This document shows, piece after piece, positions 4,219 through 32,069 of a DNA stretch of 64,000 nucleotides. A model generated the notes under the pieces. That model did not search any database and was not told the origin of the DNA. It was given only the letters and a program-made list of their open reading frames with translations. The stretch lies in contig NZ_AYVL01000003.1 in assembly GCF_000502835.1 (NCBI RefSeq), positions 139,837 to 203,836 on the forward strand, in the 5' to 3' direction. The position numbers and the translations under genes are program-made. Numbering within the stretch: the stretch's first letter is position 1; the number at the start of each line of letters is the position of its first letter. Origin of the DNA: Mesorhizobium sp. LSJC280B00. GTDB taxonomy: Bacteria > Pseudomonadota > Alphaproteobacteria > Rhizobiales > Rhizobiaceae.

Positions 4219-5280
4219 TCAGGACGCTCTCGCTTCACCGGGAGTACCGATCAGGCGCGCATAGGCAGCCACATAGTCGTGGGCCATTCTCGTGGCAGAA
4301 AAACGGTTTTCGAACACGGCTCTCACCTGTCGCCTGTCGAGGCGCAGCAATTCCGGTATCGAGGTGACTGCGGCATCGACCGTATCGACAAGGAAACCGG
4401 TCACGCCGTAGTCGATGATCTCCGGCAGGGCACCGCATTTCCAGGCGATTACCGGCGTGCCACAGGCCATAGCCTCTATCGCGGCAAGACCGAACGGCTC
4501 CGGCCAATCGATCGGAAACAGCAGGCCGGCCGCCTTGCCGAGGAATTCCGCTTTTCTGTCCTCTTCGATCTCGCCGATATAGTCGACACGGTCGCCGTCG
4601 ATCAGCGGCTCGACCGTGTCGTGGAAAAAAGGGCGGTCGTCGTCGCCGATCTTTGCTGCAAGCTTCAGTTTCAGCCCGGAGCGCAAGGCGATCTCAATGG
4701 CACGCTCCGGGCGCTTGTCGCGCGACAGCCGGCCGAGAAAGGCCAGATACGGCTCGTCCGCATTCGTCTCGAAAGTCGGCTCGTACATATTGATCGGCAG
4801 CCCGTGATGGATGGTCGCCAGCCAATTGGCCCTGGGTAGCCCGGTTCTCTGGCTGCGGGAAATGGAGATCATCGGAAAGCGCGGAAAATGTTCGTAGGCC
4901 GGGGCTAGGTCGACATAGTCGAGCCTGCCATGCGGTGTCGTCACCGTCCGGTCGGGCATGTGTTCGAAGAAAGGAAAATGCAGGAAGTGGCTGAGATGGA
5001 AATGGATGATGTCGAACTGTTGCGCACGGCTCCTCACCTCGGCGAGCATCGAGAGATGCGCCGCGGTTTCGGATTTGTGCGGGCGCGGATCGAGACGGAG
5101 CGCGCGCTCGCGACACGCCACCAATTTCGCCGACGTCTTGGTATCGCCGCTGGCGAACAGGGTCACGTCATGGCCAAGCTCGACCAATCCTTCGGTCAGA
5201 TAGGAGACGATGCGCTCCGTCCCTCCATAGAACCGGGGTGGCACGGATTCATGGAGCGGCGCCACATGGGCTATTCTCAT
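4219..5280 (-). CDS. glycosyltransferase family 4 protein
   Basis: A 353-aa GT-B glycosyltransferase of family GT4. The N-terminal Rossmann half begins MRIAHVAPL and has the acceptor-side loop PPRFYGGTER. The C-terminal half has AFLGRLSRDKRPE and the nucleotide-sugar signature WPEPFGLAAIEAMACGTPVIA, which contains the E-x7-E motif. It would transfer a hexose from an NDP-sugar in the cytoplasm. It is the promoter-proximal gene of the operon with the debranching-type hydrolase and the GT20 enzyme. The region upstream of its start carries a perfect 21-bp tandem duplication. Donor and acceptor cannot be read from the sequence. Confidence 0.9.
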   Translation of the reverse strand: MRIAHVAPLHESVPPRFYGGTERIVSYLTEGLVELGHDVTLFASGDTKTSAKLVACRERALRLDPRPHKSETAAHLSMLAEVRSRAQQFDIIHFHLSHFLHFPFFEHMPDRTVTTPHGRLDYVDLAPAYEHFPRFPMISISRSQRTGLPRANWLATIHHGLPINMYEPTFETNADEPYLAFLGRLSRDKRPERAIEIALRSGLKLKLAAKIGDDDRPFFHDTVEPLIDGDRVDYIGEIEEDRKAEFLGKAAGLLFPIDWPEPFGLAAIEAMACGTPVIAWKCGALPEIIDYGVTGFLVDTVDAAVTSIPELLRLDRRQVRAVFENRFSATRMAHDYVAAYARLIGTPGEARAS

Positions 5281-14917: not shown

Positions 14918-15712
14918 ATGTCCTTTCTAAACATGTCCTTTCTAAAATTTTTCCAGGCCAAAGCGCCGCCTCTTCCTCTTATCGTATCCTTTCCAAAATC
15001 GGGGCGCACGTGGCTACGTGTCATGCTGGACGATCTCGGAGTTGAAGTTCAATACATTCACGACGGAACCGACCACAAGTTACTTCGACCGATATCGGGC
15101 CTCAAGGAGAATAAATCTCGATACAAGAAGAGAAGAACAATAATGCTTGTTCGCGATCCAAGAGATACGGTGGTCTCAGGGTACTTTCAGGTTCAGAAGC
15201 GCCACATGCTTCCAGCGGGATCGTTCAGCGATTTTATCAGAAGCGACAATCATGGGATTGAAAAGATCATCAGATTTAATCTGCATTGGTTCGCGGCCAT
15301 GCCCCGGATGCGCGAAATCCGGTATCTTCAATATGAAGATATGCATCGGGATACGGCTGGTGTCCTTCGCGCCATCCTTGGATTCCTGAACCAGCAGGCT
15401 GACGATCGGACGCTTGTCGAGGTGGCGAACAACCGAACGTTCGACAAGATGAAAGTGAGTGAATCGACCGGTGATCTGTCCGATCGATACGGCAAGATAT
15501 TACAGCCGCGCGATGCGAATGATCCCGAAAGCTTCAAGGTGCGCAAGGGCAAGATAGGCGGTTACGGCGAATATCTTTCCGAGGACGACGTGGCCTATTG
15601 TGACGAGCAGTTGGCTAAGTTCGAATATTGGGAGAAGCTGGACAAGGTTTTTAGCACGAACGGCTTGTGCTACGCTCGCGTCGATAACCGCGTCCGGGTC
15701 GCCTTGGGTTAG
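14918..15712 (+). CDS. sulfotransferase domain protein (PAPS-dependent)
   Basis: A 264-aa cytosolic-type sulfotransferase homologue. The 5'-phosphosulfate loop SFPKSGRTW is at 24-32 and the 3'-phosphate-binding segment VRDPRDTVVSGYF at 78-90. The family moves sulfate from PAPS to a hydroxyl or amine; here a glycan or lipid acceptor is likely from context. AAAGGAGG lies 7 nt before the ATG. The first 30 nt contain a near-perfect 14-15-nt duplication including the start codon (MSFLN-MSFLK), so a second start lies at 14933. GC is nearer 50%, clearly below its neighbours, suggesting separate acquisition. Confidence 0.87.
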   Translation: MSFLNMSFLKFFQAKAPPLPLIVSFPKSGRTWLRVMLDDLGVEVQYIHDGTDHKLLRPISGLKENKSRYKKRRTIMLVRDPRDTVVSGYFQVQKRHMLPAGSFSDFIRSDNHGIEKIIRFNLHWFAAMPRMREIRYLQYEDMHRDTAGVLRAILGFLNQQADDRTLVEVANNRTFDKMKVSESTGDLSDRYGKILQPRDANDPESFKVRKGKIGGYGEYLSEDDVAYCDEQLAKFEYWEKLDKVFSTNGLCYARVDNRVRVALG

Positions 15713-15726
15713 GGAGCATTGCCGAC

Positions 15727-16422
15727 ATGGTGATGCGGACCGGATTCATTTGCGGCTGCGGCCATAGCGGGACGACGTTGATTGCGACGATCCTTGCGTC
15801 GCATCCCAACGTCTACCTGCCGCTCCAGGAAACCAACATTTTCTTCAAGTGGACGCCACTGGCCATGTTCCGCTTCTGGAAACTGAAGCGGGCGGCGCTC
15901 GATGCTGGAAAGAACGTGCTGCTTGAAAAGACACCGCGGCATATCCGCCGTGTCGCCCGCATTCGCCGGCTCGTGCCCGGCGCGCGTTTCGTCATGCCGG
16001 TGCGAGATGGGCGCGACGTCGTAGCGTCCCTGATCAAACGACTTGGCGACCCAACGGAGGCTCTCGACCGCTGGATCAACGACAATGCGCTGGTTCTTGC
16101 GGAACGGGGAAAGCCGGATGTGCTGATCTATCGCTATGAGGACCTGGTCGAGAATCCGGCCAAAGTCGTCGAGCAGATATGCGGCTTTCTCGATGTAACC
16201 TTCAGCCCGGATCTCCTCGACTATCACAAGAACCCGCAGCAGTGGTTCAAGCCGACCGACGCCAGCGGCGAGACGCCGCATGCGGTGCTCCGGAACCAAC
16301 AGGTCAATCAGCCGATCTATGACGGGAGCGGAAGATGGCGCTCCGAACTTGGAAACGCCGAGCTACAGGACCTGGTCCAAGGACGAGGTGCCCAGCTTAT
16401 GAAAGCATTCGGTTATGCATGA
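15727..16422 (+). CDS. sulfotransferase family protein
   Basis: A 231-aa protein of the bacterial sulfotransferase_3 type. The phosphosulfate-binding loop GCGHSGTTL is at 10-18, and the 3'-phosphate segment is FVMPVRDGRDVVASL at about 85-99. It differs in sequence from the preceding sulfotransferase, so the two are not a recent duplication. The stop of the first is 14 nt upstream and GGAG precedes the ATG, suggesting co-transcription. The acceptor is probably a surface glycan. PAPS-making genes are not in the window. Confidence 0.85.
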   Translation: MVMRTGFICGCGHSGTTLIATILASHPNVYLPLQETNIFFKWTPLAMFRFWKLKRAALDAGKNVLLEKTPRHIRRVARIRRLVPGARFVMPVRDGRDVVASLIKRLGDPTEALDRWINDNALVLAERGKPDVLIYRYEDLVENPAKVVEQICGFLDVTFSPDLLDYHKNPQQWFKPTDASGETPHAVLRNQQVNQPIYDGSGRWRSELGNAELQDLVQGRGAQLMKAFGYA

Positions 16423-17658: not shown

Positions 17659-18822
17659 ATGTACGCCGGCATTCGTGGCACCGAAATTCAATTCGACAGG
17701 CCGCTCCTGTTCGTGCGCCAGCGTTATGCGCCTTTCGGTGGCGGCGAGATCATGTTGGAAAACATCATGGCCGCATTCGCCGCGCGTCAGCGGCGGGTGG
17801 CCGTGCTGTCCGGCGACTGGCCGCGTTATGAAGGCATCGAGTTCATCCATTGTGCCGGCCGCCGGTTTCCGCGTTCGCTGCGGGCGACGTCCTTTGCTCA
17901 AGCTGCCTGCCGCAAGATCGCCGAGATGCCGCCGGCGCTGGTGCAGAGCAACGATCGCCTCCCGTGCTGCGATGTCTTCCGGGCCGGGGAGGGCGTTCAT
18001 GCCGCCTATCTTGCCGAGCGGCGGCGTTTCGAGACGCGGCTTGGCAGGGCGGCAATGGCGCTGAGCCCCTTTCACCGCCAGACGCTGCGCCTTGAACGTG
18101 CAACCTACGCCAGCCCGAGGCTCAAAGCTGTCATTGCCATTTCGAAGATGGTGGCAGAGGACATTGTCCGTCACTACGATTATCCGGCGGAAAATGTGCA
18201 CCATATTCCCAACGGGGTGGATCTCGACCGCTTCAACCCGCAGCTGCGCCAGCAGCATCGGGCGACAATCCGCGCGCGGCTCGACGTCGACGAAAACAGG
18301 CCGGTCGTCCTGTTTGTCGGCTCGGGCTTTGCGCGAAAAGGACTTCTTGCACTGATGAAGGCGGTCGCTAGGCTCGATGGCGAGCCTGAATTGTGGGTCA
18401 TCGGCCATGATTCGCGCGCCAACGCCTTCAGGCAGGCCGGTGACAGGCTCGGTCTCGGCGCACGGCTCAAGATGCTGGGGCCGCAGAAAGACATGCTGCC
18501 GTGGTACGGCGCGGCCGATATTGCCGTGCTGCCTTCCATCTATGATCCTTTCGGCACAGTGGTCATCGAAGCGATGGCCAGCGGCTTGCCCGCCGTGGTA
18601 AGCACCGGCTGTGGAGCGCGCGAGCTTGTCGAGCGGTTCGAGCCGACGCTCGTTTGCGATGCGGCCAGCGAAAGCGACCTCGCTGCAGCGCTCGCGCACG
18701 CGCTGCAGTTGTCGTCACGACCTGAGACCGCAGCCCGGGTGAGAGCGGCGGCCGAACACTATGATTTCAATGTCATGATCAAGCGAATGATGGCGCTGTA
18801 TGAAGGCCTTGATCTGAAATGA
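17659..18822 (+). CDS. glycosyltransferase family 4, WaaG-like
   Basis: A 387-aa GT-B enzyme. The N-terminal motif LLFVRQRYAPFGGGE resembles the start of LPS-core glucosyltransferase WaaG. The C-terminal half has VLFVGSGFARKG and SIYDPFGTVVIEAMASGLPAV, where the usual first Glu of the E-x7-E motif is Asp. It would add a hexose to an LPS core or other lipid-linked acceptor on the inner face of the membrane. It is divergent from the Glyco_tranf_2_4 gene. Confidence 0.87.
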   Translation: MYAGIRGTEIQFDRPLLFVRQRYAPFGGGEIMLENIMAAFAARQRRVAVLSGDWPRYEGIEFIHCAGRRFPRSLRATSFAQAACRKIAEMPPALVQSNDRLPCCDVFRAGEGVHAAYLAERRRFETRLGRAAMALSPFHRQTLRLERATYASPRLKAVIAISKMVAEDIVRHYDYPAENVHHIPNGVDLDRFNPQLRQQHRATIRARLDVDENRPVVLFVGSGFARKGLLALMKAVARLDGEPELWVIGHDSRANAFRQAGDRLGLGARLKMLGPQKDMLPWYGAADIAVLPSIYDPFGTVVIEAMASGLPAVVSTGCGARELVERFEPTLVCDAASESDLAAALAHALQLSSRPETAARVRAAAEHYDFNVMIKRMMALYEGLDLK

Positions 18823-18935
18823 TTTTCGACTTTGTTGAATTAGGTTAGTACCCTCAGTGTGCTAACGGGCCGGGAGCCGATGCTGCAGATGCATTCGAAT
18901 GACAGTGGCAGCTTTGATGCCGGAGCATTCTGACC

Positions 18936-19709
18936 GTGCCGGCGCTCTCGGTCATTATCATCACCCGCAACGAGGAGGCATCCATCGCGCAATGCCTTCG
19001 GTCGGTCCATTTTGCCGATGAGATCGTCGTTCTCGACAACAACAGCAGCGACAGAACCAGGGAGATTGCCGGTGCTCTGGGAGCAAAGGTTCTGATGACC
19101 GTTGATTGGCCCGGTTTTGGTGCGCAAAAAAACCGTGCGCTGGCCGCGGCAACGGGGGATTGGATCCTCTCGCTGGATGCCGATGAGTGGGTGGAGGCGC
19201 CGCTCGGCGCGGAAATAAGGGCCGCAATCGCCGACCCAAAAGCCAATGACGGCTTCGAAATACCGAGAAGATCGCGCTTTTGCGGGCACATTGTCCGCCA
19301 TAGCGGCTGGTCGCCCGATCTGGTGCTCAGGCTCTTCCGTCGCCGCTCCGGGCGGTTCAGCGACGACACCGTGCACGAGAAGGTATTGGTGAACGGGAAG
19401 GTCAGCCGATTGTCCCGGCCGATCGAGCACGATTCCATTACCGACTTGGCAGATGCCCACGACAAGATCGGCCGGTACGCAGAAGCGTCCGCCGCGCAAC
19501 TGCTTGCCGAGGGCAAAAAAAGCTCGATAGGCAAGGCGGTTTTGCGCTCGGTCTGGGCCTATGTGCGCAGCTATATTTTCCGGCTGGGATTTCTGGACGG
19601 TTCCATTGGTGCGATGGTGGCCGCGTATTCGGCCAGCTACACCTATCAGAAATGGGCCCGTGTCGCATTGGGAATGCGAGGCCCAGTCCACCCAAAAAAG
19701 CAACGCTGA
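18936..19709 (+). CDS. glycosyltransferase family 2, WaaE/KdtX-like
   Basis: A 257-aa GT-A enzyme: LSVIIITRNEEASI at 4-17, VLDNNSSDRT at 32-41, DADEW at 81-85. The layout, including the FGAQKNRAL segment, resembles LPS-core beta-glucosyltransferases of the WaaE type. The start is GTG at 18936 with CCGGAG about 13 nt upstream. A hydrophobic C-terminal segment may associate with the membrane. It follows the WaaG-like gene by 113 nt, which supports a core-oligosaccharide role. Confidence 0.87.
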   Translation: MPALSVIIITRNEEASIAQCLRSVHFADEIVVLDNNSSDRTREIAGALGAKVLMTVDWPGFGAQKNRALAAATGDWILSLDADEWVEAPLGAEIRAAIADPKANDGFEIPRRSRFCGHIVRHSGWSPDLVLRLFRRRSGRFSDDTVHEKVLVNGKVSRLSRPIEHDSITDLADAHDKIGRYAEASAAQLLAEGKKSSIGKAVLRSVWAYVRSYIFRLGFLDGSIGAMVAAYSASYTYQKWARVALGMRGPVHPKKQR

Positions 19710-19817
19710 GGCCAGGACAAATCTGTGAGAAACCGGCTTGGTTGACCGCAATTGTTGCCGAGCCATCGCCAACTAGTTAGTGTACGACCGTAAAAATCGA
19801 AAGCCAGGGTAGTGAAT

Positions 19818-20540
19818 ATGACTGATGCGTTTAGGGTATTTATCGGATGGGACAGCCGTGAGCCGATCGCGTACGACGTCGCGCGACACTCCCTGCTCAA
19901 ACATGCGTCGGCGCCTGTCTCCGTCATTCCGATCAAACAGGACGAGATGCGTGCCCGCGGGCTATATTGGCGGGAAAAAGATCCGCTCGCCTCAACGGAG
20001 TTCACCTACACGCGCTTCCTCACGCCCTTTCTCGCCGACTACACGGGTTGGGCCCTGTTTTGCGATTGCGATTTCCTGTGGCTTGGTGACGTCGCAGGCC
20101 TGCTGAAATATACGGACTCGGACAAGGCGGTCTATTGCGTCCAGCATGACTATACGCCGAAGGCCACAACCAAGATGGATGGTGTGGTCCAGACGTCCTA
20201 TCCTCGGAAAAACTGGTCGTCGCTGATGCTGTTCAATTGCGCGCATCCTTCGGTCAGATCGCTCACGCCAGAGGTCGTGAATCAGGAAAGTGGCGCCTAT
20301 CTTCACCGAATGCAGTGGGTTGCCGACAAAGATTTGGGCTCATTGCCGGTAGAGTGGAATTGGCTCGAAGGCTGGAACGAAAAGCCTGCGGTCGGCACAC
20401 CTAAGGCGGTCCACTATACCAGCGGCGGCCCGTGGTTTGCCGAATGGCAGAATGTCGACTACGCCGATTTGTGGATAGCAGAACGCGACGAGTTCCTGGC
20501 TTCCGAACAAGCGGAATCTTCTCAGAGCGCCGTTCGCTAA
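19818..20540 (+). CDS. GT8-like glycosyltransferase
   Basis: A 240-aa protein starting MTDAFRVFIGWDSREPIAYDV, with the metal-binding DxD motif in LFCDCDFLWLGD at about 80-91 and a C-terminal HYTSGGPWF motif that probably closes the active site. The fold is GT8-like with a retaining mechanism expected. ATG 19818 has AGGG 9 nt upstream; a GTG at 19812 is an alternative. It belongs with the surrounding surface-glycan genes. Specificity unknown. Confidence 0.8.
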   Translation: MTDAFRVFIGWDSREPIAYDVARHSLLKHASAPVSVIPIKQDEMRARGLYWREKDPLASTEFTYTRFLTPFLADYTGWALFCDCDFLWLGDVAGLLKYTDSDKAVYCVQHDYTPKATTKMDGVVQTSYPRKNWSSLMLFNCAHPSVRSLTPEVVNQESGAYLHRMQWVADKDLGSLPVEWNWLEGWNEKPAVGTPKAVHYTSGGPWFAEWQNVDYADLWIAERDEFLASEQAESSQSAVR

Positions 20541-20753
20541 GAACATCGTGTTTGGCAGGTGACCTGGGCGCTTCCGAAAGTGGCATTGATTTTCGTGTCG
20601 CCAAGGGCGCAGCAACCAGCCGTCAGGCGCTGGGCGTCGACAACAATGCGTGTTGCCGCCTGGGGGCGGGACCGGGGCAGATTGCGCCTACGAATCTGGC
20701 GGCTCCGGCCGGGTAAACATGCCGCGCTGAGATAAGGATCAGCTCGCGGCAAC

Positions 20754-21851
20754 ATGATCGGTTTGGGGTCCGTCAGCTCTTTCATCGGCCTAGCCGGCAC
20801 GCGAAAGTCGACCATGCCGTCACTGCGAAGACGCCTCGATCGTTTCCTGGAGAACCGCGGGCCTAAAATACCGCGGCTGCAGCTGAACCATGTCGAGCGC
20901 CTGGCGCTGGTCCGTCGCCACGGTGATTTTTCCCTTGCCTATTCGACCGCCGTGCAGAAGGGGCTTCACTACTTCGGCGATGCCCAGGGCTACATCGCTT
21001 ACGGCAGCAAAACGCGACATCATTTCGCGCTCGGTGATCCAGTGGCTGCCCCGGCCGATCGGCGCGACTATATCAGACGTTTCATCGAGGTTGCCGGCAG
21101 CCCGTGGTTCGTGCAGATCGGCGACCAGACGGCGCGCGTGCTTGCCGGGCTTGGCTATCAGGTCAACCGCCTCGGCGTCGACACCAGGCTTGTCCTGCCC
21201 AGACACGACTTTTCCGGAAAGCGCAATGAGACAGTGCGCTATTCCGAACGCTGGCTCTTGAAGAAGGGTTTTTCCTTCGCAGAGGACAACGGGACTGTCT
21301 TCCTCGACGAGATTGCCAGGCTCTCCCAGAATTGGCGGGCCGACCGCATCGTCAAGCGCTGGGAGATGAGATTTCTCAACAGGCCCTTTGCCGATCACCT
21401 TGGCGTCGATATGCGCCGTTTCGTCCTGCACGGTCCGGATGGGGAGCTCGTGGCCTTGCTGGATTTCGATCCGCTGTTCAGCGACGGCAAGGTCATCGGC
21501 TACACCACCTCGTTCAAGCGCAAGCATATCGATGGCTCGGCGCATGCCGAGATCGGCCTGACCAAATTCGCGGTCGACCGCTTTCGCGATGAAGGTGTTT
21601 CCGTCGTCACCCTAGGCCTGTCGCCGCTTGTCGAAATCGGACCTAGCGGGTTTGCCGAAAGCGATTTCTGGCGGCACGCCTTCCAGCGTGCCTATGACTC
21701 TCCCTGGGTCAATCGCACCCGCTTCAATCTGCAGGGGCAGGCGGCCTTCAAGCGCCGGTTCCATGGTGTCGAAGAGCCGACCTATCTTGCCTTTCGCAAG
21801 GGGACCTTTTTCGAAGCGCTTTCTCTGCTCCGGCTGATCAGGGCCGTCTAG
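20754..21851 (+). CDS. DUF2156 (MprF synthase-like) protein
   Basis: A 365-aa protein with the two tandem GNAT-like lobes of the DUF2156 domain, the catalytic part of MprF-type phosphatidylglycerol aminoacyl transferases: YIAYGSKTRHHFALGDPVA in the first lobe, FAVDRFRDEGVSVVTLGLSPL in the second. MprF itself has a long membrane flippase domain, absent here, so it is either a stand-alone synthase or a transferase with another acceptor. The start may be 20754 or 20814 (MPSLRRRLD). It ends the glycan island and may modify membrane lipids or the glycan. Confidence 0.8.
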   Translation: MIGLGSVSSFIGLAGTRKSTMPSLRRRLDRFLENRGPKIPRLQLNHVERLALVRRHGDFSLAYSTAVQKGLHYFGDAQGYIAYGSKTRHHFALGDPVAAPADRRDYIRRFIEVAGSPWFVQIGDQTARVLAGLGYQVNRLGVDTRLVLPRHDFSGKRNETVRYSERWLLKKGFSFAEDNGTVFLDEIARLSQNWRADRIVKRWEMRFLNRPFADHLGVDMRRFVLHGPDGELVALLDFDPLFSDGKVIGYTTSFKRKHIDGSAHAEIGLTKFAVDRFRDEGVSVVTLGLSPLVEIGPSGFAESDFWRHAFQRAYDSPWVNRTRFNLQGQAAFKRRFHGVEEPTYLAFRKGTFFEALSLLRLIRAV

Positions 21852-22438: not shown

Positions 22439-23512
22439 TCAGGCCGGAAACAGGAATGCAGCAGCGGGATCGAAAAAGACCTGCCGGCTGCAGGGCCACA
22501 CATCCTGCGATTGCATGGCGGAGGTCGGCCTGATGTCAACCTCCTGTCCAGCGGCGATGCGCGCGACGATCCGCCGGCGCTCGCCGTAAAATGCGATGTC
22601 GACGATCTCGACATTCAGTTCCGCGCTCGCCGGGCTCCGCTCCATGCTAAAGGCTTCGGGCCGGATCATCAGCCTGGTCTTCTGGCCTTTGCCGAACGTG
22701 CCGTTGGCCCTGACTCCGGATATCACCGAACCGTCTGTCATGCGGATCGTTGTCGTGCCGTTGGTGGTGCCGAGATGTTCGGCGGCGAGGAAATTCGAAT
22801 TGCCGATGAAGCCGGCGACGAAATCGGTCGCCGGCCTGAGATAGAGATCCTCGCCGGTGCCGGTCTGCTCGATGCGGCCATCCTTGAACAGGGCGATTCG
22901 GTCCGACAGATGCAGCGCCTCTTCCTGATCGTGGGTGACGTAGAGAATGGTGACGCCGGTCTGGCGATGGATGCGGCGGATTTCGCCCTGGATTTCCTCG
23001 CGCAGCTTCTTGTCGAGCGCCGACAATGGCTCGTCCATCAAAAGGATCGGAGGATCGTAGGCCAGCGCCCGGGCCAGCGCGACGCGCTGCTGCTGGCCGC
23101 CCGACAGCGCACCGGGTAAGCGTCCGGCAAAGCTTTCGAGCCGCACCAGGGCCAGCATGTCGGCGACCTTTTTCTTCACGTCGGCGTCCGGCCGGCGGCG
23201 AACCCGCAGCGGAAAAGCGACGTTTTCGGCCACCGTCAGATGCGGAAACAGCGTGTAGCGCTGGAAGACCATGCCGATGTTGCGCTTATGCGAAGGCACT
23301 GCAAGCAGTGATTTTCCTTCCAGCAAGACATCGCCGGAAGTCGGGTCCTGAAAGCCGGCGATCGCGTAGAGCGTCGTCGATTTTCCCGAACCGGAGGGCC
23401 CGAGGAAGGTCAGGAACTCGCCCCTGGGAATGTCCAGCGTGACGTCGTGCACGGCGACGATCGCCCCGAACGCCTTGCGCAGATTGCGGATGGAGAGGAA
23501 AGGGTGGGTCAT
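22439..23512 (-). CDS. ABC transporter ATP-binding protein, polyamine/PotA type
   Basis: A 357-aa ATPase: Walker A GPSGSGKST at 38-46, Q-loop VFQRYTLFPH, signature LSGGQ at 136-140, Walker B ILLMDE at 156-161, H-loop YVTHDQEEA, then a C-terminal TOBE regulatory domain (about 270-350), as in PotA and FbpC. It energises the importer encoded just upstream. Its ATG overlaps the previous permease stop by 4 nt. An upstream open extension to 23695 is antisense-free but lacks family match and is rejected. It is the last gene of the eight-gene operon. Confidence 0.92.
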   Translation of the reverse strand: MTHPFLSIRNLRKAFGAIVAVHDVTLDIPRGEFLTFLGPSGSGKSTTLYAIAGFQDPTSGDVLLEGKSLLAVPSHKRNIGMVFQRYTLFPHLTVAENVAFPLRVRRRPDADVKKKVADMLALVRLESFAGRLPGALSGGQQQRVALARALAYDPPILLMDEPLSALDKKLREEIQGEIRRIHRQTGVTILYVTHDQEEALHLSDRIALFKDGRIEQTGTGEDLYLRPATDFVAGFIGNSNFLAAEHLGTTNGTTTIRMTDGSVISGVRANGTFGKGQKTRLMIRPEAFSMERSPASAELNVEIVDIAFYGERRRIVARIAAGQEVDIRPTSAMQSQDVWPCSRQVFFDPAAAFLFPA

Positions 23513-24309
23513 GTCCGGAACTTTCGGTGCAGCAGCGCCGTCATCACCATCAGGGCAAGCGTCAGCCCGACCAGCAGGCTGGAGGCAGCGGCGATCACCG
23601 GACTGAGGTCCGACCGCAGACTGCCCCAGATCTTGACGGGCAAGGTTTGCAAGCTGGGGCTGGCCATGAAGATCGCCACCACGACTTCGTCCCACGAGGC
23701 GAGGAAGGAAAAGATCGCGGCGGAGAAGATGCCGATCCGGATCGACGGCAAGGTGATCCTGAGCCTGGCCTCGAGCGGGCTTGCCCCGCAGACGATTGCC
23801 GCGTCCTCGATCGACTTGTCGAACCCTTCGAGCGCGGTGGCGATCGGAATGATGGCGAAGGGCAGCGCCAGCACGGTGTGGGCGATGACGAAGCCGATGG
23901 TGGTGCCGCCGAGGCCAAGGCGAAGGAAGAAGGCGTAGATGGCGATGGCGAAGACAACGACGGGCAGCACCATCGGCGTCAGCAGCAGGCCGCGCAGGAT
24001 CTCACGTCCGGCAAACCGTCCGCGAACCAGGGCAAAGGAGGCGAGCAGGCCGATCGCTACTGCCAGGATCGCCGTCATGGTGGCGATTCGGGCGCTGGTC
24101 AGCGCGGCGTTGAGCCAAGCCGGATCGGCAAAAAGCTCCTGGTACCATTTGAGCGTCCAGCCGGGCGGCGGAAAAGCCAGCCAGCGCGACGAGCCGAAGG
24201 AGAGCAGGACGATGAAAACCACCGGCAACAGAAGAAAGCCGGCGACCAGCGCGGTGAAGCCGAGCAGGGCAACCCGTAGCCAACCCATGCGGTCATAGTC
24301 GAGCAGCAT
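23509..24309 (-). CDS. ABC transporter permease, PotC type
   Basis: A 266-aa inner-membrane permease with about six helices and the binding-protein-dependent transport EAA loop (EDAAIVCGASPLEARLRITLPSI at roughly 170-192) that contacts the ATPase. The start at 24309 lies immediately after the stop of the upstream permease. Together they form the heteromeric channel of a polyamine-type (family 1 spermidine/putrescine-like) importer. The actual substrate is unknown; the operon's enzymes suggest an amine or N-containing compound. Confidence 0.9.
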   Translation of the reverse strand: MLLDYDRMGWLRVALLGFTALVAGFLLLPVVFIVLLSFGSSRWLAFPPPGWTLKWYQELFADPAWLNAALTSARIATMTAILAVAIGLLASFALVRGRFAGREILRGLLLTPMVLPVVVFAIAIYAFFLRLGLGGTTIGFVIAHTVLALPFAIIPIATALEGFDKSIEDAAIVCGASPLEARLRITLPSIRIGIFSAAIFSFLASWDEVVVAIFMASPSLQTLPVKIWGSLRSDLSPVIAAASSLLVGLTLALMVMTALLHRKFRT

Positions 24310-24310
24310 C

Positions 24311-25219
24311 TCAGATGCCTCCGCTCGTGCGCCTGGCACCGACAAGGCGCAGCTGCAGTGCGTAGAGAACCATGGTGACGACAAGCAGGATGAAGGCAGC
24401 GGCGCTGCCGAGCCCCCAGTTGAGCAGCGACTGGACCATTTGCGCGATCATTTCGGCAAGCATCATGTTCGACGTGCCGCCGAGCAGTGCCGGCGTTACG
24501 AAGTAGCCGAGCGACATGACGAAGACCATCAGGCCGCCGGCCGCGACGCCGGGCAGCGACAGCGGCACGAGGATGCGGCGGAACGCCTGGAAGGGGCTTG
24601 CGCCGCACAGCGACGCCGCACGCAGCGTCATCGGATCGATCGCCCGTAACGTGCCGACCAGCGGCAGGATCATGAAGGGCAGCATGATATAGACCATGCC
24701 GATGGTGACGCCGGTGAGATTGTTGATGAGCGGCAGCGGGTGGTCGATGACGCCGATGGTCATCAGCGTCCGGTTGATCACGCCGGTACGCTGCAGGAGC
24801 ACCATCCAGGCATAGGTGCGGGTGAGCAGGTTCGTCCACATCGACAGAATGATGATGCCGAAGATGATCGAGGCCAGTCCCGAAGGCATGATCGCCAGCA
24901 TCCAGGCGACCGGAAAGGCGACAAGGACCGTGGCGACGGTGACCAACGCCGCGACCAGGAATGTGTTGAAGAACACCCGCGCATAGGTGCCGTCACCAAG
25001 CAGGGCAGCATAGTTCTGCAAGCCTGGCTCGGGCTCCGTGACACTGCGCAAAAGCAGCGCCAGCACGGGGATGACGAAGAACAGCATAATCAGAATCAGG
25101 GCCGGCAGCAGGCCATTGAGACCTGCCGGCACCCGCACCGTTCCAAAGTTCCGGCGTGTTTCGACCGACATGACAGCGACCCGGCTACGGGACGAGACGG
25201 CGCGAACCGTCTCGTCCAT
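24311..25219 (-). CDS. ABC transporter permease, PotB type
   Basis: A 302-aa permease with about six membrane helices and the EAA-loop motif (LRAASLCGASPFQAFRRILVPL) near residue 215. The start at 25219 lies 18 nt after the binding-protein stop, fitting coupled translation; MSVETRR at 25171 is an alternative. It is the first of two permease subunits of the polyamine-type importer. Confidence 0.9.
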   Translation of the reverse strand: MDETVRAVSSRSRVAVMSVETRRNFGTVRVPAGLNGLLPALILIMLFFVIPVLALLLRSVTEPEPGLQNYAALLGDGTYARVFFNTFLVAALVTVATVLVAFPVAWMLAIMPSGLASIIFGIIILSMWTNLLTRTYAWMVLLQRTGVINRTLMTIGVIDHPLPLINNLTGVTIGMVYIMLPFMILPLVGTLRAIDPMTLRAASLCGASPFQAFRRILVPLSLPGVAAGGLMVFVMSLGYFVTPALLGGTSNMMLAEMIAQMVQSLLNWGLGSAAAFILLVVTMVLYALQLRLVGARRTSGGI

Positions 25220-26341: not shown

Positions 26342-27817
26342 CTACCGCATGACAAAAGGATCGGGAATCGGGTCGTCGGAGGTGCGTATCCACACCGATT
26401 TCGAACGCGTGTAGTCGCGGATCGCATCGAGGCCGCCCTCGCGGCCGAGCCCGGATTGGCCGTAGCCGCCAAACGGAACCAGCGGCGAGACCGCCCGATA
26501 GGTGTTGATCCAGACCACGCCGGCATGGATGCCGCGCGCCATGCGGTGGGCTTTTGCCAGATTGGTGGTGAACACGCCGGACGCCAGGCCGAATTTCGTG
26601 TCGTTGGCGAGCGAAAGCGCTTCAGCTTCGCCGTCGAAGGCTAGCACACAGAGCACCGGGCCGAAGAGCTCTTCGCGCACGCAGGCAAGGGTCTGATCAG
26701 GCGCGTCGATAATCGTCGGCGCGTAATAGAAGCCGTCCGCCATGCCCGCGGGGCGAATGCCGCCGGTGACCAGTTGCCCGCCCGCGGCCAGGCTTTCAGC
26801 AATGATCTTCTCTATCCATTCGCGCTGGCGCGAGGTGGCGAGCGGTCCCATTTCGATCGCGGGATCCTGCGGATCGCCAATCCTGATCGCCTCGGCTTTG
26901 CGCTTGAGCCGGGCGAGGAATTCGTCCTTCACGGAGCGCTGGACCAGCAGCCGAGAGCCGGCGACGCAGCTCTGGCCGGTGGCAGCGAAGATGCCGGCAA
27001 CGACCGCGTTGGCGGCGCTGTCCAGATCGGCATCGGCAAACACCACGACCGGGCTTTTGCCGCCGAGCTCGAGCGTCGTGAAAGCGAGGTTTTCCGCCGT
27101 ATTCCTGACGATCTGCCGAGCGGTCGAGGGACCGCCGGTGAAGGCGACGCGGGCGACGAGCCGATGACTGGTCAGCCGGTGACCGCAATCGTGGCCGAAG
27201 CCGGTCAGGATGTTCACGGTCCCGGCGGGAAATCCCGCCTCATGGACGAGTTCGGCGAAGGCCAGCAACGGGGCAGGGCCGTCTTCCGATGCTTTCAGAA
27301 CGATGGTGCAGCCGGCCGCCAGCGCCGGCCCGAGCTTGACGGCGGACAGGAAGAGCTGCGAGTTCCACGGCACAATGGCGGCTACGACGCCAATTGGCTC
27401 CGGCCGGATGGTCACTTCCATGTCGGCCTTGTCGATGGGGACAAACGAGCCCTCGTGCTTGTCGGCCAGCCCGCCATAATAGCGGTAATAGTCGCCGACA
27501 TAGGCGATCTGGGCGCGGGTCTCGCGGATGATCTTGCCGGTATCGCGCGTCTCGAGTTCCGCCAGCCGGTCGGCATTGGCGACCACCAGATCGCCGAGCC
27601 GCACCAGAAGCTTGCCGCGTGCCGTTGCCGTCATTGCCGGCCACGTGCCGGAGCCAAGCGCCCGGTGAGCAGCTTCGACGGCGCGGTCGACGTCATCAGA
27701 CGATGCAGCGGGCATCTTCGCCCATGGCGCGCCCGTCGAGGGATCGATGCTGTCGAAGGTCGCCGCCACTTCGACGAAGCTGCCGTCAATATAGTTCCTG
27801 AATTGAGTGGTGCTCAT
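26342..27817 (-). CDS. aldehyde dehydrogenase family protein
   Basis: A 491-aa NAD(P)-dependent aldehyde dehydrogenase of normal length. Catalytic Glu250 lies in LELGGKSP and catalytic Cys284 in GQSCVAGSRL; the IVPWNSQLFLS segment binds the cofactor. The family oxidises aldehydes to acids. Its start overlaps the luciferase-like gene's stop by 4 nt. In this operon it probably oxidises an aldehyde released by the monooxygenase or hydrolase step. Confidence 0.93.
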   Translation of the reverse strand: MSTTQFRNYIDGSFVEVAATFDSIDPSTGAPWAKMPAASSDDVDRAVEAAHRALGSGTWPAMTATARGKLLVRLGDLVVANADRLAELETRDTGKIIRETRAQIAYVGDYYRYYGGLADKHEGSFVPIDKADMEVTIRPEPIGVVAAIVPWNSQLFLSAVKLGPALAAGCTIVLKASEDGPAPLLAFAELVHEAGFPAGTVNILTGFGHDCGHRLTSHRLVARVAFTGGPSTARQIVRNTAENLAFTTLELGGKSPVVVFADADLDSAANAVVAGIFAATGQSCVAGSRLLVQRSVKDEFLARLKRKAEAIRIGDPQDPAIEMGPLATSRQREWIEKIIAESLAAGGQLVTGGIRPAGMADGFYYAPTIIDAPDQTLACVREELFGPVLCVLAFDGEAEALSLANDTKFGLASGVFTTNLAKAHRMARGIHAGVVWINTYRAVSPLVPFGGYGQSGLGREGGLDAIRDYTRSKSVWIRTSDDPIPDPFVMR

Positions 27818-28877: not shown

Positions 28878-30677
28878 TCACCCGCGGCCGGAAAGAGGAA
28901 TTTGAGAAGGCGCGGGCTTGGCGAGCGGCCGGACTTCGCCTTCGACCTCGTTGCCGACATAGACGCCGAATGCATCTTCCGTACGTTCGCGCGCATAGCG
29001 GGCAAGCATCGAACGCACTGCGGGATCGGCGATCTTCAGATCCGCGATCTTCTCGAGGTCGACAAGCCGCATCTGGCGATCGTCGGAATAGGATCCCTCG
29101 ACCGTTCCGCGATAATAAACATGCGTGCGCCAGGGTTCGGCGGCATCGTCCCACACCGCGAACAGGAAGCCGAGCTGGGCGTCTATGGCCCTGGCGGCAA
29201 GGCGCCCTTTGAGGCTGCGCGCATCGTTGGGCGTGCCCAGTCCGCGCCCCGCAGGCAATTCATAAATCCCGTCGGCTGTTTCGACGAACAGCACACGGCC
29301 CTCGTTCTCGAGAATGGCGCCGACCTCCGTATCGGGGGGCGCCGCCGCCAGCGCCTCCTGGCTGAGGCCAGGCGTGACGTAGGTGCCTCTGCAATAACCG
29401 AGGGGCTGGGCTCCGTTGTGGCTGAAGTCGCGGACGCGGCCGATGAGGATCGAGTGATCGCCAGCATCGACCAGCTGCTCCATGCCGCAATCGAACACCG
29501 CAACGGAGCCGTCGATCAGCGGATTGCCGGTCCGGCCCGGTTGCCAGCTCACGGCCGCGAACTTGTCCGCTGCTTTGGAAGCGAAGATGCCGGAATGGGC
29601 CTTCTGGTCCTCTGACAGGATGTTGATGGCGAAACCTCTCGACGTCGAAAAAGCACTGTGCCCCAGCGCCCTCTTGGCGATGCAGACAAGCACCAGCGGC
29701 GGCTCGAGTGAGACCGAGGTGAAGGAGTTGGCGGTGAAGCCGCGCGGTTCGCCTTCCGCTCCGATCGTTGTGACGATGGTGACACCGGTCAGGAAGGAGC
29801 CGAGTGCGCGCCGGAATTCGCCGCTGTCAAAGACTGCATCCGTCTCCGGCCTCACGCCAGCGTCTCCTGCCGTGTCGAGAAATTCCATGATGTGTTTGGT
29901 CACTTTTTCAGGTGAAGCCATTGCCATCATGTGCCTTTCTCCATTGAGCACGAGGCATTGGCTGTGCGGCGCAAGCCTCGCCATCGCCGCCGACATGGCC
30001 GGGGTCGAATTGCTGTCCTGCGACCCGGTCATGAACAGGGCCGGTGCGGCAAGACCGGGGAGGGCATCGGCATGCTCGGCATCGGCACGGGCAAAGAGGC
30101 GATAGGTGCGCGCGTAGCCTTCGGGGTCGACCCTTTCAAGGGCGGCGCGCGCGGTAGAGGCCGCCCCGATAAGGTTCGCCGGCAGCGGGTCGCCGAACCA
30201 GCGGGCAAGCGTAGCCGCAATGGCGGAACGGTTGCCATGGGTGCCGAGCGCGGCCGCCCGCTCGCGCACGGCCTGCGTCAAGGCCGCGGGGCGGCGGAAC
30301 ACCGCGTTGAGGCACACGATGGCGCGAACGCGCAAAGGGGCGCGAAGGGCGATTTCCAGTGCGACCAGCGCGCCCATCGAATGGCCGACGATCGACACCG
30401 ACGCCACGCCAAGATGGTCGAGCAGGCGAACCGCCTGATCGGCGAAATCCGACAGGCTGGCTTCTTCCGGCGGCAGCGGTGAAACGCCGTGGCCGAGCAT
30501 GTCGATGGCGATCAGGTCATGATGGTCTTTCATCGCCGCGATCTGATCGTGCCAGATCGCGGCGTTCATGCCGACACCGTGAATGAGCAGAACCGGCGCG
30601 CCGGAGCCGGCGCGGATGAAGCCGGTGCCGTCCGGAGCCGTGTCCCGGACCCATGCGGTGGCAGCGACGTCAGCCAT
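28878..30677 (-). CDS. alpha/beta hydrolase - flavin reductase - Nudix-like fusion protein
   Basis: A 599-aa three-part protein. Residues about 20-270 form an alpha/beta hydrolase with HGVGMN, nucleophile Ser100 in GHSMG, and likely Asp221 and His249. Residues about 286-436 are a flavin reductase domain (FRRALGSFLTGVTIVTT, FTANSFTSVSLEPPLV, DHSILIGRVRDF). Residues about 451-575 resemble a degenerate Nudix fold (VGAILENEGRVLFVE, YELPAGRG) without a complete Nudix box. It would supply reduced flavin to the adjacent monooxygenase and hydrolyse a pathway intermediate, as RutF and RutD do as separate proteins. The ATG has GGAG upstream and overlaps the DUF1185 gene by 8 nt. Domains 1 and 2 are secure; the third is tentative. 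Confidence 0.85.
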   Translation of the reverse strand: MADVAATAWVRDTAPDGTGFIRAGSGAPVLLIHGVGMNAAIWHDQIAAMKDHHDLIAIDMLGHGVSPLPPEEASLSDFADQAVRLLDHLGVASVSIVGHSMGALVALEIALRAPLRVRAIVCLNAVFRRPAALTQAVRERAAALGTHGNRSAIAATLARWFGDPLPANLIGAASTARAALERVDPEGYARTYRLFARADAEHADALPGLAAPALFMTGSQDSNSTPAMSAAMARLAPHSQCLVLNGERHMMAMASPEKVTKHIMEFLDTAGDAGVRPETDAVFDSGEFRRALGSFLTGVTIVTTIGAEGEPRGFTANSFTSVSLEPPLVLVCIAKRALGHSAFSTSRGFAINILSEDQKAHSGIFASKAADKFAAVSWQPGRTGNPLIDGSVAVFDCGMEQLVDAGDHSILIGRVRDFSHNGAQPLGYCRGTYVTPGLSQEALAAAPPDTEVGAILENEGRVLFVETADGIYELPAGRGLGTPNDARSLKGRLAARAIDAQLGFLFAVWDDAAEPWRTHVYYRGTVEGSYSDDRQMRLVDLEKIADLKIADPAVRSMLARYARERTEDAFGVYVGNEVEGEVRPLAKPAPSQIPLSGRG

Positions 30678-31257
30678 GCAGGTCTCCGACCTCCTTGAGG
30701 TCCTGATAGCGGTCGCCGATACGATGGTGCGGGCGGCCACCAATCGAAGCGCCAAGCGCCACTACCAGCTCATCGGGCGCTGGCGCGTCGCCGATTTGGA
30801 AATGTACGGTCAGATAGTGGGAGCGGCGGCCTTCGTCGTTCTTGTCCATCAGCGGGATCATGATCGGGGTGTTCGGCCCTCCGCGCAGATTGGTGAAGGC
30901 GAGATAGGTCTTGGCGCCGACCGCGCGACGGTAATGGTTGCCGAAATGCAGCGTATGGATCAGCGCCGATGCATGCTCGATCTCGCCCGCCGTGCCGCAG
31001 ACCGCGGCCTTGCCATAACCCTCTATCGCCTCGCCGGAACCGGCGACGGCGATGATTTCGCGGGTCAGCAGTTCACCGAGGACGGGAGCAATAGCGCGGA
31101 TCTCCGGCGACAGGTCGTCGGTGAAACCGCGGCCGGCCCAGGGATTTGTCAGCACAGCCGCGACACCGATCAGACGCAGCGGTTTTGGGGCTTCCTTGCC
31201 GCCCTCGATTAACGTGTTCTCGATGTACGTGACGATCTTTCGAATGGCTGGTTTCAT
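30670..31257 (-). CDS. amino acid synthesis family protein (DUF1185)
   Basis: A 195-aa protein of family PF06684: MKPAIRKIVTYIENTLIEGG at the start, LTNPWAGRGFTDDL near 36-49, EIEHASALIHTLHFGNHYRRA near 91-111. Its structural family is described as a chorismate-mutase-like fold of unknown reaction. It is the first gene of the eight-gene operon and the first transcribed from the divergent promoter next to the GntR regulator. Its biochemical role is not established, and the word synthesis in the family name is not proof of one. Confidence 0.87.
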   Translation of the reverse strand: MKPAIRKIVTYIENTLIEGGKEAPKPLRLIGVAAVLTNPWAGRGFTDDLSPEIRAIAPVLGELLTREIIAVAGSGEAIEGYGKAAVCGTAGEIEHASALIHTLHFGNHYRRAVGAKTYLAFTNLRGGPNTPIMIPLMDKNDEGRRSHYLTVHFQIGDAPAPDELVVALGASIGGRPHHRIGDRYQDLKEVGDLHG

Positions 31258-31397: not shown

Positions 31398-32069
31398 ATG
31401 TCAGGCGATACGCTGCGGATCGACCGCTCTGCCAAGACGCTGAGGACGCTGGCGCTGGAGCGCATGCGTGAGGCGATCATGGGCTTCCATTTCCAGCCTG
31501 GTGAAAGGCTGGTCGAGCGGCCGCTATGCGATCAGCTCGGGGTAAGCCGTTCCGTCGTGCGCGAGGTGCTGCGGCAGCTGGAGGCGGAAGGCCTGGTGCA
31601 GATGATACCGGGCCACGGACCCGCCGTGGCCAAACCGGATCTCGGCCGCACCGACGAAATCTATGAATTGCGGGCGCTGCTCGAGGGCATCGCGGCGCGG
31701 GCTTGCGCCCTGACAGCCACGGACGCGCAGATCGCCTCGCTCGATGCCGCCTTGACGAACCTGCTTGAGGCGTGGGCGTCCGGTGCGCCTGTCGAGGTGA
31801 TGCGGGCAACGACCAAGTTCTACGAAACGCTGTTCGAGGCGGCGGACAAGCGCATTGCCTGGGAAATCGTGACGGGGCTGAATGTCCGCATCAACCAGCT
31901 CCGCTCAATGACGATCGCGTCGGAGAACCGCCGCGAGCCGGCGATCGCCGAAATGACCGAAATCATGGATGCAATCCGGTCGCGCAAGCCGGACGAGGCG
32001 GAGGAGGCGGCGCGGCGGCATGTCGAATCCGCGTGGCAGATCGCCCGCAACACGCTTCGCCTTGGCTGA
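31398..32069 (+). CDS. GntR-family transcriptional regulator with FCD domain
   Basis: A 223-aa repressor-type regulator. The winged helix is at about 14-75 (GERLVERPLCDQLGVSRSVVREVLRQLEAEGLV). The FCD ligand-binding domain is at about 85-215 (DEIYELRALLEGIAARACA, and HVESAWQ near the end, where His and Asp residues usually bind a metal). It is divergent from the catabolic operon and probably controls both promoters through the palindrome. The inducer is probably a substrate or intermediate of the pathway. ATG has GGGAG nearby. Confidence 0.9.
   Translation: MSGDTLRIDRSAKTLRTLALERMREAIMGFHFQPGERLVERPLCDQLGVSRSVVREVLRQLEAEGLVQMIPGHGPAVAKPDLGRTDEIYELRALLEGIAARACALTATDAQIASLDAALTNLLEAWASGAPVEVMRATTKFYETLFEAADKRIAWEIVTGLNVRINQLRSMTIASENRREPAIAEMTEIMDAIRSRKPDEAEEAARRHVESAWQIARNTLRLG

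Follow-up and report, generated by a model that had tools for sequence, protein, structure and literature searches.

What function is served by a protein that joins an α/β hydrolase, a flavin reductase and a third domain in one reading frame? The question is raised by a 64,000-nucleotide stretch of Mesorhizobium sp. LSJC280B00 (contig NZ_AYVL01000003.1, positions 139,837 to 203,836), referred to below as the window, in which positions 28878–30677 of the minus strand form a stop-free frame of 599 amino acids starting with MADVAATA; on the plus strand, the same positions contain stops. So far the protein carries only the label ‘alpha/beta fold hydrolase’ (plasmid record of M. amorphae), and the comparisons described here offer a likely function. 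On the basis of sequence and gene order, we conclude that it probably unites in a single chain two enzymes of trigonelline degradation, or of a closely similar pathway for an N-methylpyridinium carboxylate: an MFMS hydrolase in the TgnD role and an FMN reductase in the TgnB role. By analogy with known clusters, trigonelline would be the substrate. What is new here is one fusion architecture within a known pathway.

Domains of the fused protein

An initial annotation of this DNA had described a three-domain fusion in a single frame without naming a strand, and this architecture stands: a TgnD-like α/β hydrolase followed by a TgnB-like flavin reductase with a Nudix-fold C-terminal domain, all encoded on the minus strand (28878–30677). 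The hydrolase domain spans approximately residues 1–272 (29862–30677), with PF00561 matching residues 28–252 at 103.1 bits (Pfam cut-off 25.8). Its triad lies at the residues previously named, with Ser100 in GHSMGA, Asp221 in SQDSNS and His249 in ERHMMA, and the three columns are invariant across an alignment of 10 related sequences. The flavin reductase domain, likewise borne out by profile search, occupies approximately residues 286–436 (29370–29822), where PF01613 matches residues 293–435 at 142.6 bits (gathering cut-off 27). Between the two lies a linker of approximately residues 273–285 (29823–29861), poorly conserved and modeled with low confidence: in a model of the full-length protein (overall pTM 0.57), pLDDT falls below 50 at residues 275–282. 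The C-terminal domain covers approximately residues 447–585 (28923–29339).

Resemblance to trigonelline degradation clusters

The trigonelline degradation pathway was reportedly worked out in Acinetobacter baylyi ADP1 by Perchat et al. in 2018, and the Tgn letters and reaction steps assigned here follow that work. A passage of PMC8269262 ascribes opening of the trigonelline ring to a ‘TgnA/TgnB oxygenase system’, and a passage of PMC7913881 describes TgnF of A. baylyi ADP1 as a homologue of a PF06684-type protein and as a stimulator of the TgnE-dependent oxidation of succinate semialdehyde. Together, these two passages tie the composition of the window locus to the tgn cluster. A figure legend in PMC11354265 labels the luciferase-like trigonelline monooxygenase ‘TgnB’, which differs from the wording in the PMC8269262 passage, and hence A and B could be swapped relative to our usage.

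Counterparts of other tgn genes flank the fused gene on the minus strand. Upstream, and overlapping it by 8 bases, is a TgnF-like PF06684 gene (30670–31257). Downstream is the gene for a TgnA-like luciferase-type monooxygenase (PF00296; 27814–28872), as the initial annotation had implied in placing such an enzyme beside the reductase, followed with a 4-base overlap by that for a TgnC-like aldehyde dehydrogenase (PF00171; 26342–27817). Compared with the A. baylyi locus (L035), the proteins are 66% (PF06684), 37% (hydrolase), 41% (reductase plus C-terminal domain), 60% (monooxygenase) and 62% (aldehyde dehydrogenase) identical. Gene set and order are the same, and both loci have a GntR regulator; they differ in that A. 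baylyi has TgnD and TgnB as two genes and a linked succinate-semialdehyde dehydrogenase gene. The window also encodes an ATP-binding cassette (ABC) transporter, whereas open reading frames after the aldehyde dehydrogenase gene in a related A. baumannii locus resemble, by eye, a permease and a porin.

A second point of comparison is the symbiotic plasmid pSymA of Sinorhizobium meliloti. According to a passage of PMC4207669, wild-type S. meliloti grows on trigonelline and a strain without pSymA does not. We located a tgn-type cluster on pSymA of strain 1021 (L030). It shares with the window the full gene set, including the ABC binding protein, and a reductase with the Nudix-fold domain; it differs in that hydrolase and reductase are separate and a succinate-semialdehyde dehydrogenase gene follows. 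Identities to the window proteins are 71% (PF06684), 40% (hydrolase), 39% (reductase), 61% (monooxygenase), 68% (aldehyde dehydrogenase) and 65% (binding protein). The pSymA reductase is identical over 311 residues to the solved structure 3rh7, ‘putative oxidoreductase (SMa0793)’ (7051–7983 of L030), which is thus most likely S. meliloti TgnB; a solved but nameless structure would thereby gain a function.

From 549 relatives we took the 80 named genome loci whose monooxygenase is most similar to that of Acinetobacter, a set that leans towards its clade, and found the PF06684, hydrolase, reductase and aldehyde dehydrogenase genes around the monooxygenase gene in 75 of them. A succinate-semialdehyde dehydrogenase (at 50% identity or more) lies within the stretch in 23 of the 80. 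Among seven annotated plasmid records, six have the PF06684 gene before the hydrolase–reductase pair and the monooxygenase and aldehyde dehydrogenase genes after it; in the Paraburkholderia record, PF06684 and monooxygenase genes were not found in the stretch examined. Some of these records continue with an ABC transporter and some with a succinate-semialdehyde dehydrogenase; there is also a GntR regulator. In Acidiphilium multivorum pACMV1 (L024), an IS110 transposase gene splits the monooxygenase match in two.

Probable shared function of two reductase clades

A reductase tree was built from 122 of 128 collected rows, repeats of the same gene being left out; rows shorter than 800 bases had been excluded, and six with an in-frame stop after extension had been dropped. 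For this analysis, we label the clade containing A. baylyi and S. meliloti type I and its sister clade, which holds the window, type II. With groups assigned from this tree, we asked how far the window proteins keep the columns with 97% or higher invariance in type I. The numbers are 44/47 for the hydrolase, 121/136 for the monooxygenase, 202/214 for the aldehyde dehydrogenase and 69/70 for the PF06684 protein. For a diverged Mesorhizobium cluster (L129) used as a control, the corresponding values are 31/47, 86/136, 150/214 and 61/69, and an unrelated hydrolase (L096) keeps 29 of the 47 hydrolase columns.

Type II genes also occur where canonical ones are missing. The type I cluster of Burkholderia sp. 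H160 (L048) has neither hydrolase nor reductase; within a few kilobases of it are a type II hydrolase–reductase pair and a type II binding protein. In Caballeronia pedi (L045), where the type I reductase is missing, the adjacent type II cluster includes a monooxygenase gene. In 8 of 18 Burkholderiales loci, the type II binding protein shares the locus with canonical catabolic genes. The retained columns and the apparent stand-in in L048 and L045 argue that type II would do the same job as type I. The Burkholderiales type II pairs (L039, L040, L048 and plasmid L022) are the closest split relatives found of the window pair, being ∼48–56% identical and accompanied by a related ABC binding protein; they differ in that they are two genes and in that several have no monooxygenase of their own in the stretch examined and adjoin a canonical cluster.

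Several points weigh against the trigonelline assignment. The window belongs to the sister clade of the characterized enzymes, and its hydrolase and reductase parts are 37–41% identical to them; therefore, the substrate may differ. Because L129 keeps 53/61 of the reductase columns and the window 55/61, the column test does not discriminate for this protein, and as any closer homologue is favored, the column comparison as a whole is supportive rather than decisive. Another Burkholderiales locus (L042) lacks the canonical reductase and has no type II pair in the stretch examined. Type I and type II lie side by side in several Burkholderiales loci (in 9 of 18, a type II reductase, whole or partial, is encoded on the opposite strand), an arrangement that can also mean two substrates. 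No succinate-semialdehyde dehydrogenase gene is linked to the fused gene in the window region examined. The A. baylyi locus comes from the type strain, not ADP1. PF06684 is unspecific, occurring in other settings: a passage of PMC2954203 links the first structures of the family to amino-acid metabolism, and a homologue is found in a coumarin operon. Finally, the CC-licensed PMC literature that we read gave no measurements of activity, growth or expression for a fused protein.

These points leave room for a type II pathway devoted to a related betaine, in which the same chemistry would act on another N-alkylpyridinium or on a pyridine carboxylate and the fused protein would catalyze the equivalent two steps. 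The distinct type II group in both the reductase and binding-protein trees would fit this picture, as would the adjoining types in Burkholderiales (the binding-protein and monooxygenase trees come from quick searches, and the latter was seen in part). Set against it are the near-complete retention of type I invariant columns, the replacement of the missing canonical pair in L048, and the presence of the type II binding protein in canonical catabolic loci. We consider a separate substrate of this kind unlikely.

Within Mesorhizobium, canonical-type hydrolase rows come from two genomes alone (G005 and G086), neither of which has the fusion; two genomes are too few to show that type I and fused type II exclude each other. 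The diverged cluster L129 (G028:C10:31000-48000) is a third cluster in the genus, with an SBP_bac_3 transporter and identities of 59% (PF06684), 38% (reductase plus C-terminal domain), 47% (aldehyde dehydrogenase), 43% (monooxygenase) and 32% (hydrolase). L129-like reductase rows (36–41%) were counted at 36 places, spread over 35 genomes of the genus, 24 of which also have a fused copy; L129 is the sole one examined. Its cluster is possibly a pathway for another pyridine-type compound.

Proposed reaction sequence

Reductases of this family catalyze NAD(P)H-dependent reduction of FMN and feed a separate monooxygenase. In the sequence proposed for trigonelline or its close variant, the reductase half of the fused protein would make FMNH2 and hand it by diffusion to the TgnA-like monooxygenase, which would open the N-methylpyridinium ring at C5–C6. 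The TgnC-like dehydrogenase would convert the resulting aldehyde to the dicarboxylate MFMS, and the hydrolase half would split this product into methylamine, formate, CO2 and succinate semialdehyde. Dehydrogenases encoded elsewhere could oxidize the last of these: the genome does contain succinate-semialdehyde dehydrogenase (TgnE role), its two best copies lying on other contigs and being 57–58% identical to the S. meliloti gene. With the fused gene present in 79 of 146 genomes, these data suggest that a plant betaine pathway is widespread in Mesorhizobium.

The initial annotation had proposed that the fusion couples FMNH2 supply, oxygenation and hydrolysis, a claim for which we find no support. 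Perchat et al. (2018) are said to place an aldehyde dehydrogenase step between ring opening and hydrolysis, and a gene that matches this step lies next door (26342–27817). Because the dehydrogenase step intervenes, direct hand-over between the fused activities is not expected, and oxygenation and hydrolysis are unlikely to be directly coupled. The fusion would fix the hydrolase-to-reductase ratio and would create no new reaction.

Spread and origin of the fusion

Intact single frames were found at 81 places in 79 of the 146 Mesorhizobium genomes, two genomes (G062 and G065) having two each; therefore, the gene fusion is real. In G019, the fused protein is in two pieces on two contigs. One copy in a draft genome (L132 in G080, near position 5183) is broken near residues 434–442, between the reductase and the C-terminal domain, which reflects either a sequencing error or a decaying gene. 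Overall, 94 of the 146 genomes have a match, 13 of them carrying solely more distant relatives. Matches on plasmids of the genus extend over all 599 residues in one piece, at 87% identity in M. amorphae, whose record annotates one gene, and at 69% in two other strains. In the reductase tree, the 21 fused rows included, out of at least 81 fused copies, form one clade (support 100/99), consistent with a single origin.

Outside the genus, the arrangement differs. Hydrolase and reductase are two adjacent, separate genes in all seven annotated plasmid records (Paraburkholderia, Leisingera, Acidiphilium, Rhizobium, Pantoea, S. meliloti and Ruegeria), overlapping by 4 to 8 bases in five, and across 100 split pairs the first matched reductase base lies between −75 and +65 bases relative to the end of the hydrolase gene. 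In a class-wide sample, 14 of 385 genomes match at E 1e-45 or better (at most three candidates scored per genome), and none besides the window's own spans both parts in one frame. Independent assemblies with two separate genes had been named beforehand as the finding that would overturn the fusion: within the genus the single frame is upheld, and separate genes appear outside it in the annotated records examined. An open frame through hydrolase and reductase was also seen in four loci from Phaeobacter/Roseobacter and an alphaproteobacterial metagenome-assembled genome (L073, L091, L093 and L077). Because these retain, by eye, a ribosome-binding-like motif and an ATG at the reductase start, we do not count them as obligate fusions; they may yield both fused and free reductase. 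In the sampled lineages, obligate fusion is seen solely in Mesorhizobium. The joining of the two genes appears to have happened once, in this genus of root-nodule bacteria, most simply when the stop codon separating two neighboring or overlapping genes was lost. No title naming such a fusion came up in searches of the CC-licensed PMC literature; most of the listed papers were judged by title alone, and the fusion may nonetheless have been published.

The linker is poorly conserved. Over 19 rows, mean identity is 0.33 in the linker (residues 271–285), compared to 0.74 in the hydrolase, 0.86 in the reductase and 0.76 in the C-terminal domain. In the linkers of the 21 fused rows examined, no ATG is preceded by a ribosome-binding motif. 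Two rows have a GTG: that of the window lies in the linker (residue 275; 29853–29855, minus strand) with AGGAG upstream and is a possible internal start, unconserved in the other fused genes examined, and that of L020, with GAGG, is still inside the hydrolase.

One could suppose that the two enzymes are physically coupled for catalysis, as a metabolic channel that goes beyond co-translation. Retention of the fusion in so many genomes of the genus would agree with this, as would the position of hydrolase and reductase directly before the monooxygenase in 76 of the 80 named loci (the 75 complete ones and L082). The four further single-frame cases might be added, and repeated independent fusion was considered as a sign of coupling; it was rejected, since those four retain the start signals of the reductase. 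The intervening dehydrogenase step is a further obstacle, as are the variable, low-confidence linker in a model of overall pTM 0.57 and the separation of hydrolase and reductase genes in L129. We therefore regard such a channel as improbable.

The Nudix-fold domain

The initial annotation had described the C-terminal segment as Nudix-like without the catalytic box, which the structural comparison bears out. Pfam gives no match to the last 160 residues up to E = 10. A model of these residues built on 38 sequences has a mean pLDDT of 85.5, and its top match among solved structures is the Nudix hydrolase 3cng (Foldseek E 1.5e-8), followed by 3rh7. The structural alignment to 3cng has a Z score of 14.9 and a root-mean-square deviation of 2.5 over 126 aligned residues; of 1000 chains aligned to the model, 595 reach a Z score of at least 8. 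By fold, the domain thus belongs with the Nudix superfamily. The Nudix box is missing: the pattern with its catalytic glutamates occurs in none of 128 homologous rows, and residues 474–501 of the window protein read LPAGRGLGTPNDARSLKGRLAARAIDAQ. Six residues of the domain are invariant. In alignment numbering, P36 is located where the Nudix-loop region begins, and R121, E125, G132, Y134 and G141 are in the last helix and the hairpin that follows.

This domain is not peculiar to the fused protein. It is present in reductases of both clades, including unfused ones, and has been solved in S. meliloti (3rh7); therefore, the fusion did not give rise to it. We favor the view that it would be a non-catalytic part of TgnB, most simply one that binds a ligand or stabilizes a dimer. 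The initial annotation had supposed that it may bind a nucleotide-like ligand. A more doubtful idea, which we put forward tentatively, is that the box-less domain senses a pyridinium- or nicotinamide-type ligand and gates FMN reduction, so that FMNH2 would be made only with substrate. In Mesorhizobium, the hydrolase of the third step would be locked to such a gated reductase, and the resulting enzyme, under the control of substrate, would assemble with the monooxygenase and the dehydrogenase. Either way, the role of a Nudix-fold domain in a flavin reductase becomes testable.

Other candidate identities

The initial annotation had taken the Rut pyrimidine pathway as its frame of reference, with RutD and RutF functions combined in the fused protein. 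RutD and RutF are of the same superfamilies, and the similarity is distant: 94.8 bits to TIGR03615 (RutF) and 76.2 bits to TIGR03611 (RutD), far below equivalog cut-offs of 254.75 and 238.5, respectively. Other models outscore both, no other Rut model appears for the scanned neighbors among the best 25 matches per protein, and the neighborhood is that of a tgn cluster. We consider pyrimidine degradation very improbable.

Three further candidates were set aside. By E-value, the best NCBIfam match is the 4-hydroxyphenylacetate reductase C1 (NF045919), which scores 159.3 bits against a cut-off of 340; for this reductase of p-hydroxyphenylacetate hydroxylase (5zc2), the match to the window protein covers the reductase domain alone. 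C1 is likewise a flavin reductase with an extra C-terminal domain that serves a separate monooxygenase. The AAMS hydrolase of the pyridoxine pathway (3kxp) distantly resembles the hydrolase part in a PDB search (E 9.1e-17), where esterases and 3-oxoadipate enol-lactonase rank higher, and it is not one of the four entries that the A. baylyi hydrolase matches with an E-value of 1e-12 or lower; we take it to be useful as a chemical analogy alone. For homarine as a substrate, we found no gene data, and a passage of PMC8269262 makes the case that it is an unlikely substrate of TgnA/TgnB.

A misassembly or missed stop joining two genes, as the two separate genes in other taxa examined might suggest, is next to impossible given 81 intact frames in 79 genomes, one gene annotated on the M. 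amorphae plasmid, and a single clade of fused rows.

Transporter, regulator and remaining genes of the window

Beyond the aldehyde dehydrogenase gene, the minus strand of the window continues with genes for an ABC transporter: the substrate-binding protein (PF13416; 25238–26257), two permeases assigned by gene order and by the M. amorphae annotation (24311–25219, and 23509–24384 with its start uncertain), and the ATPase (PF00005; 22439–23500). A GntR/FCD regulator gene (PF07729 and PF00392) lies on the other side of the cluster and is divergent (31398–32069, plus strand).

The transporter bears on an existing label in S. meliloti. By locus-tag order, SMa0793 being the 3rh7 reductase, we take SMa0799-803 to be the transporter of the pSymA trigonelline-type cluster. 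Given this position, the ligand of its binding protein (10931–11869 of L030) may be trigonelline. A passage of PMC7268258, a symbiosis TnSeq screen in S. meliloti, names the same genes potABCD2, a putrescine uptake system, and that label is called into question.

Elsewhere in the window, two regions of the plus strand (14918–16419 and 17659–21848) hold two sulfotransferase genes, two glycosyltransferase genes and one LPG_synthase_C gene, all unrelated to the fused gene.

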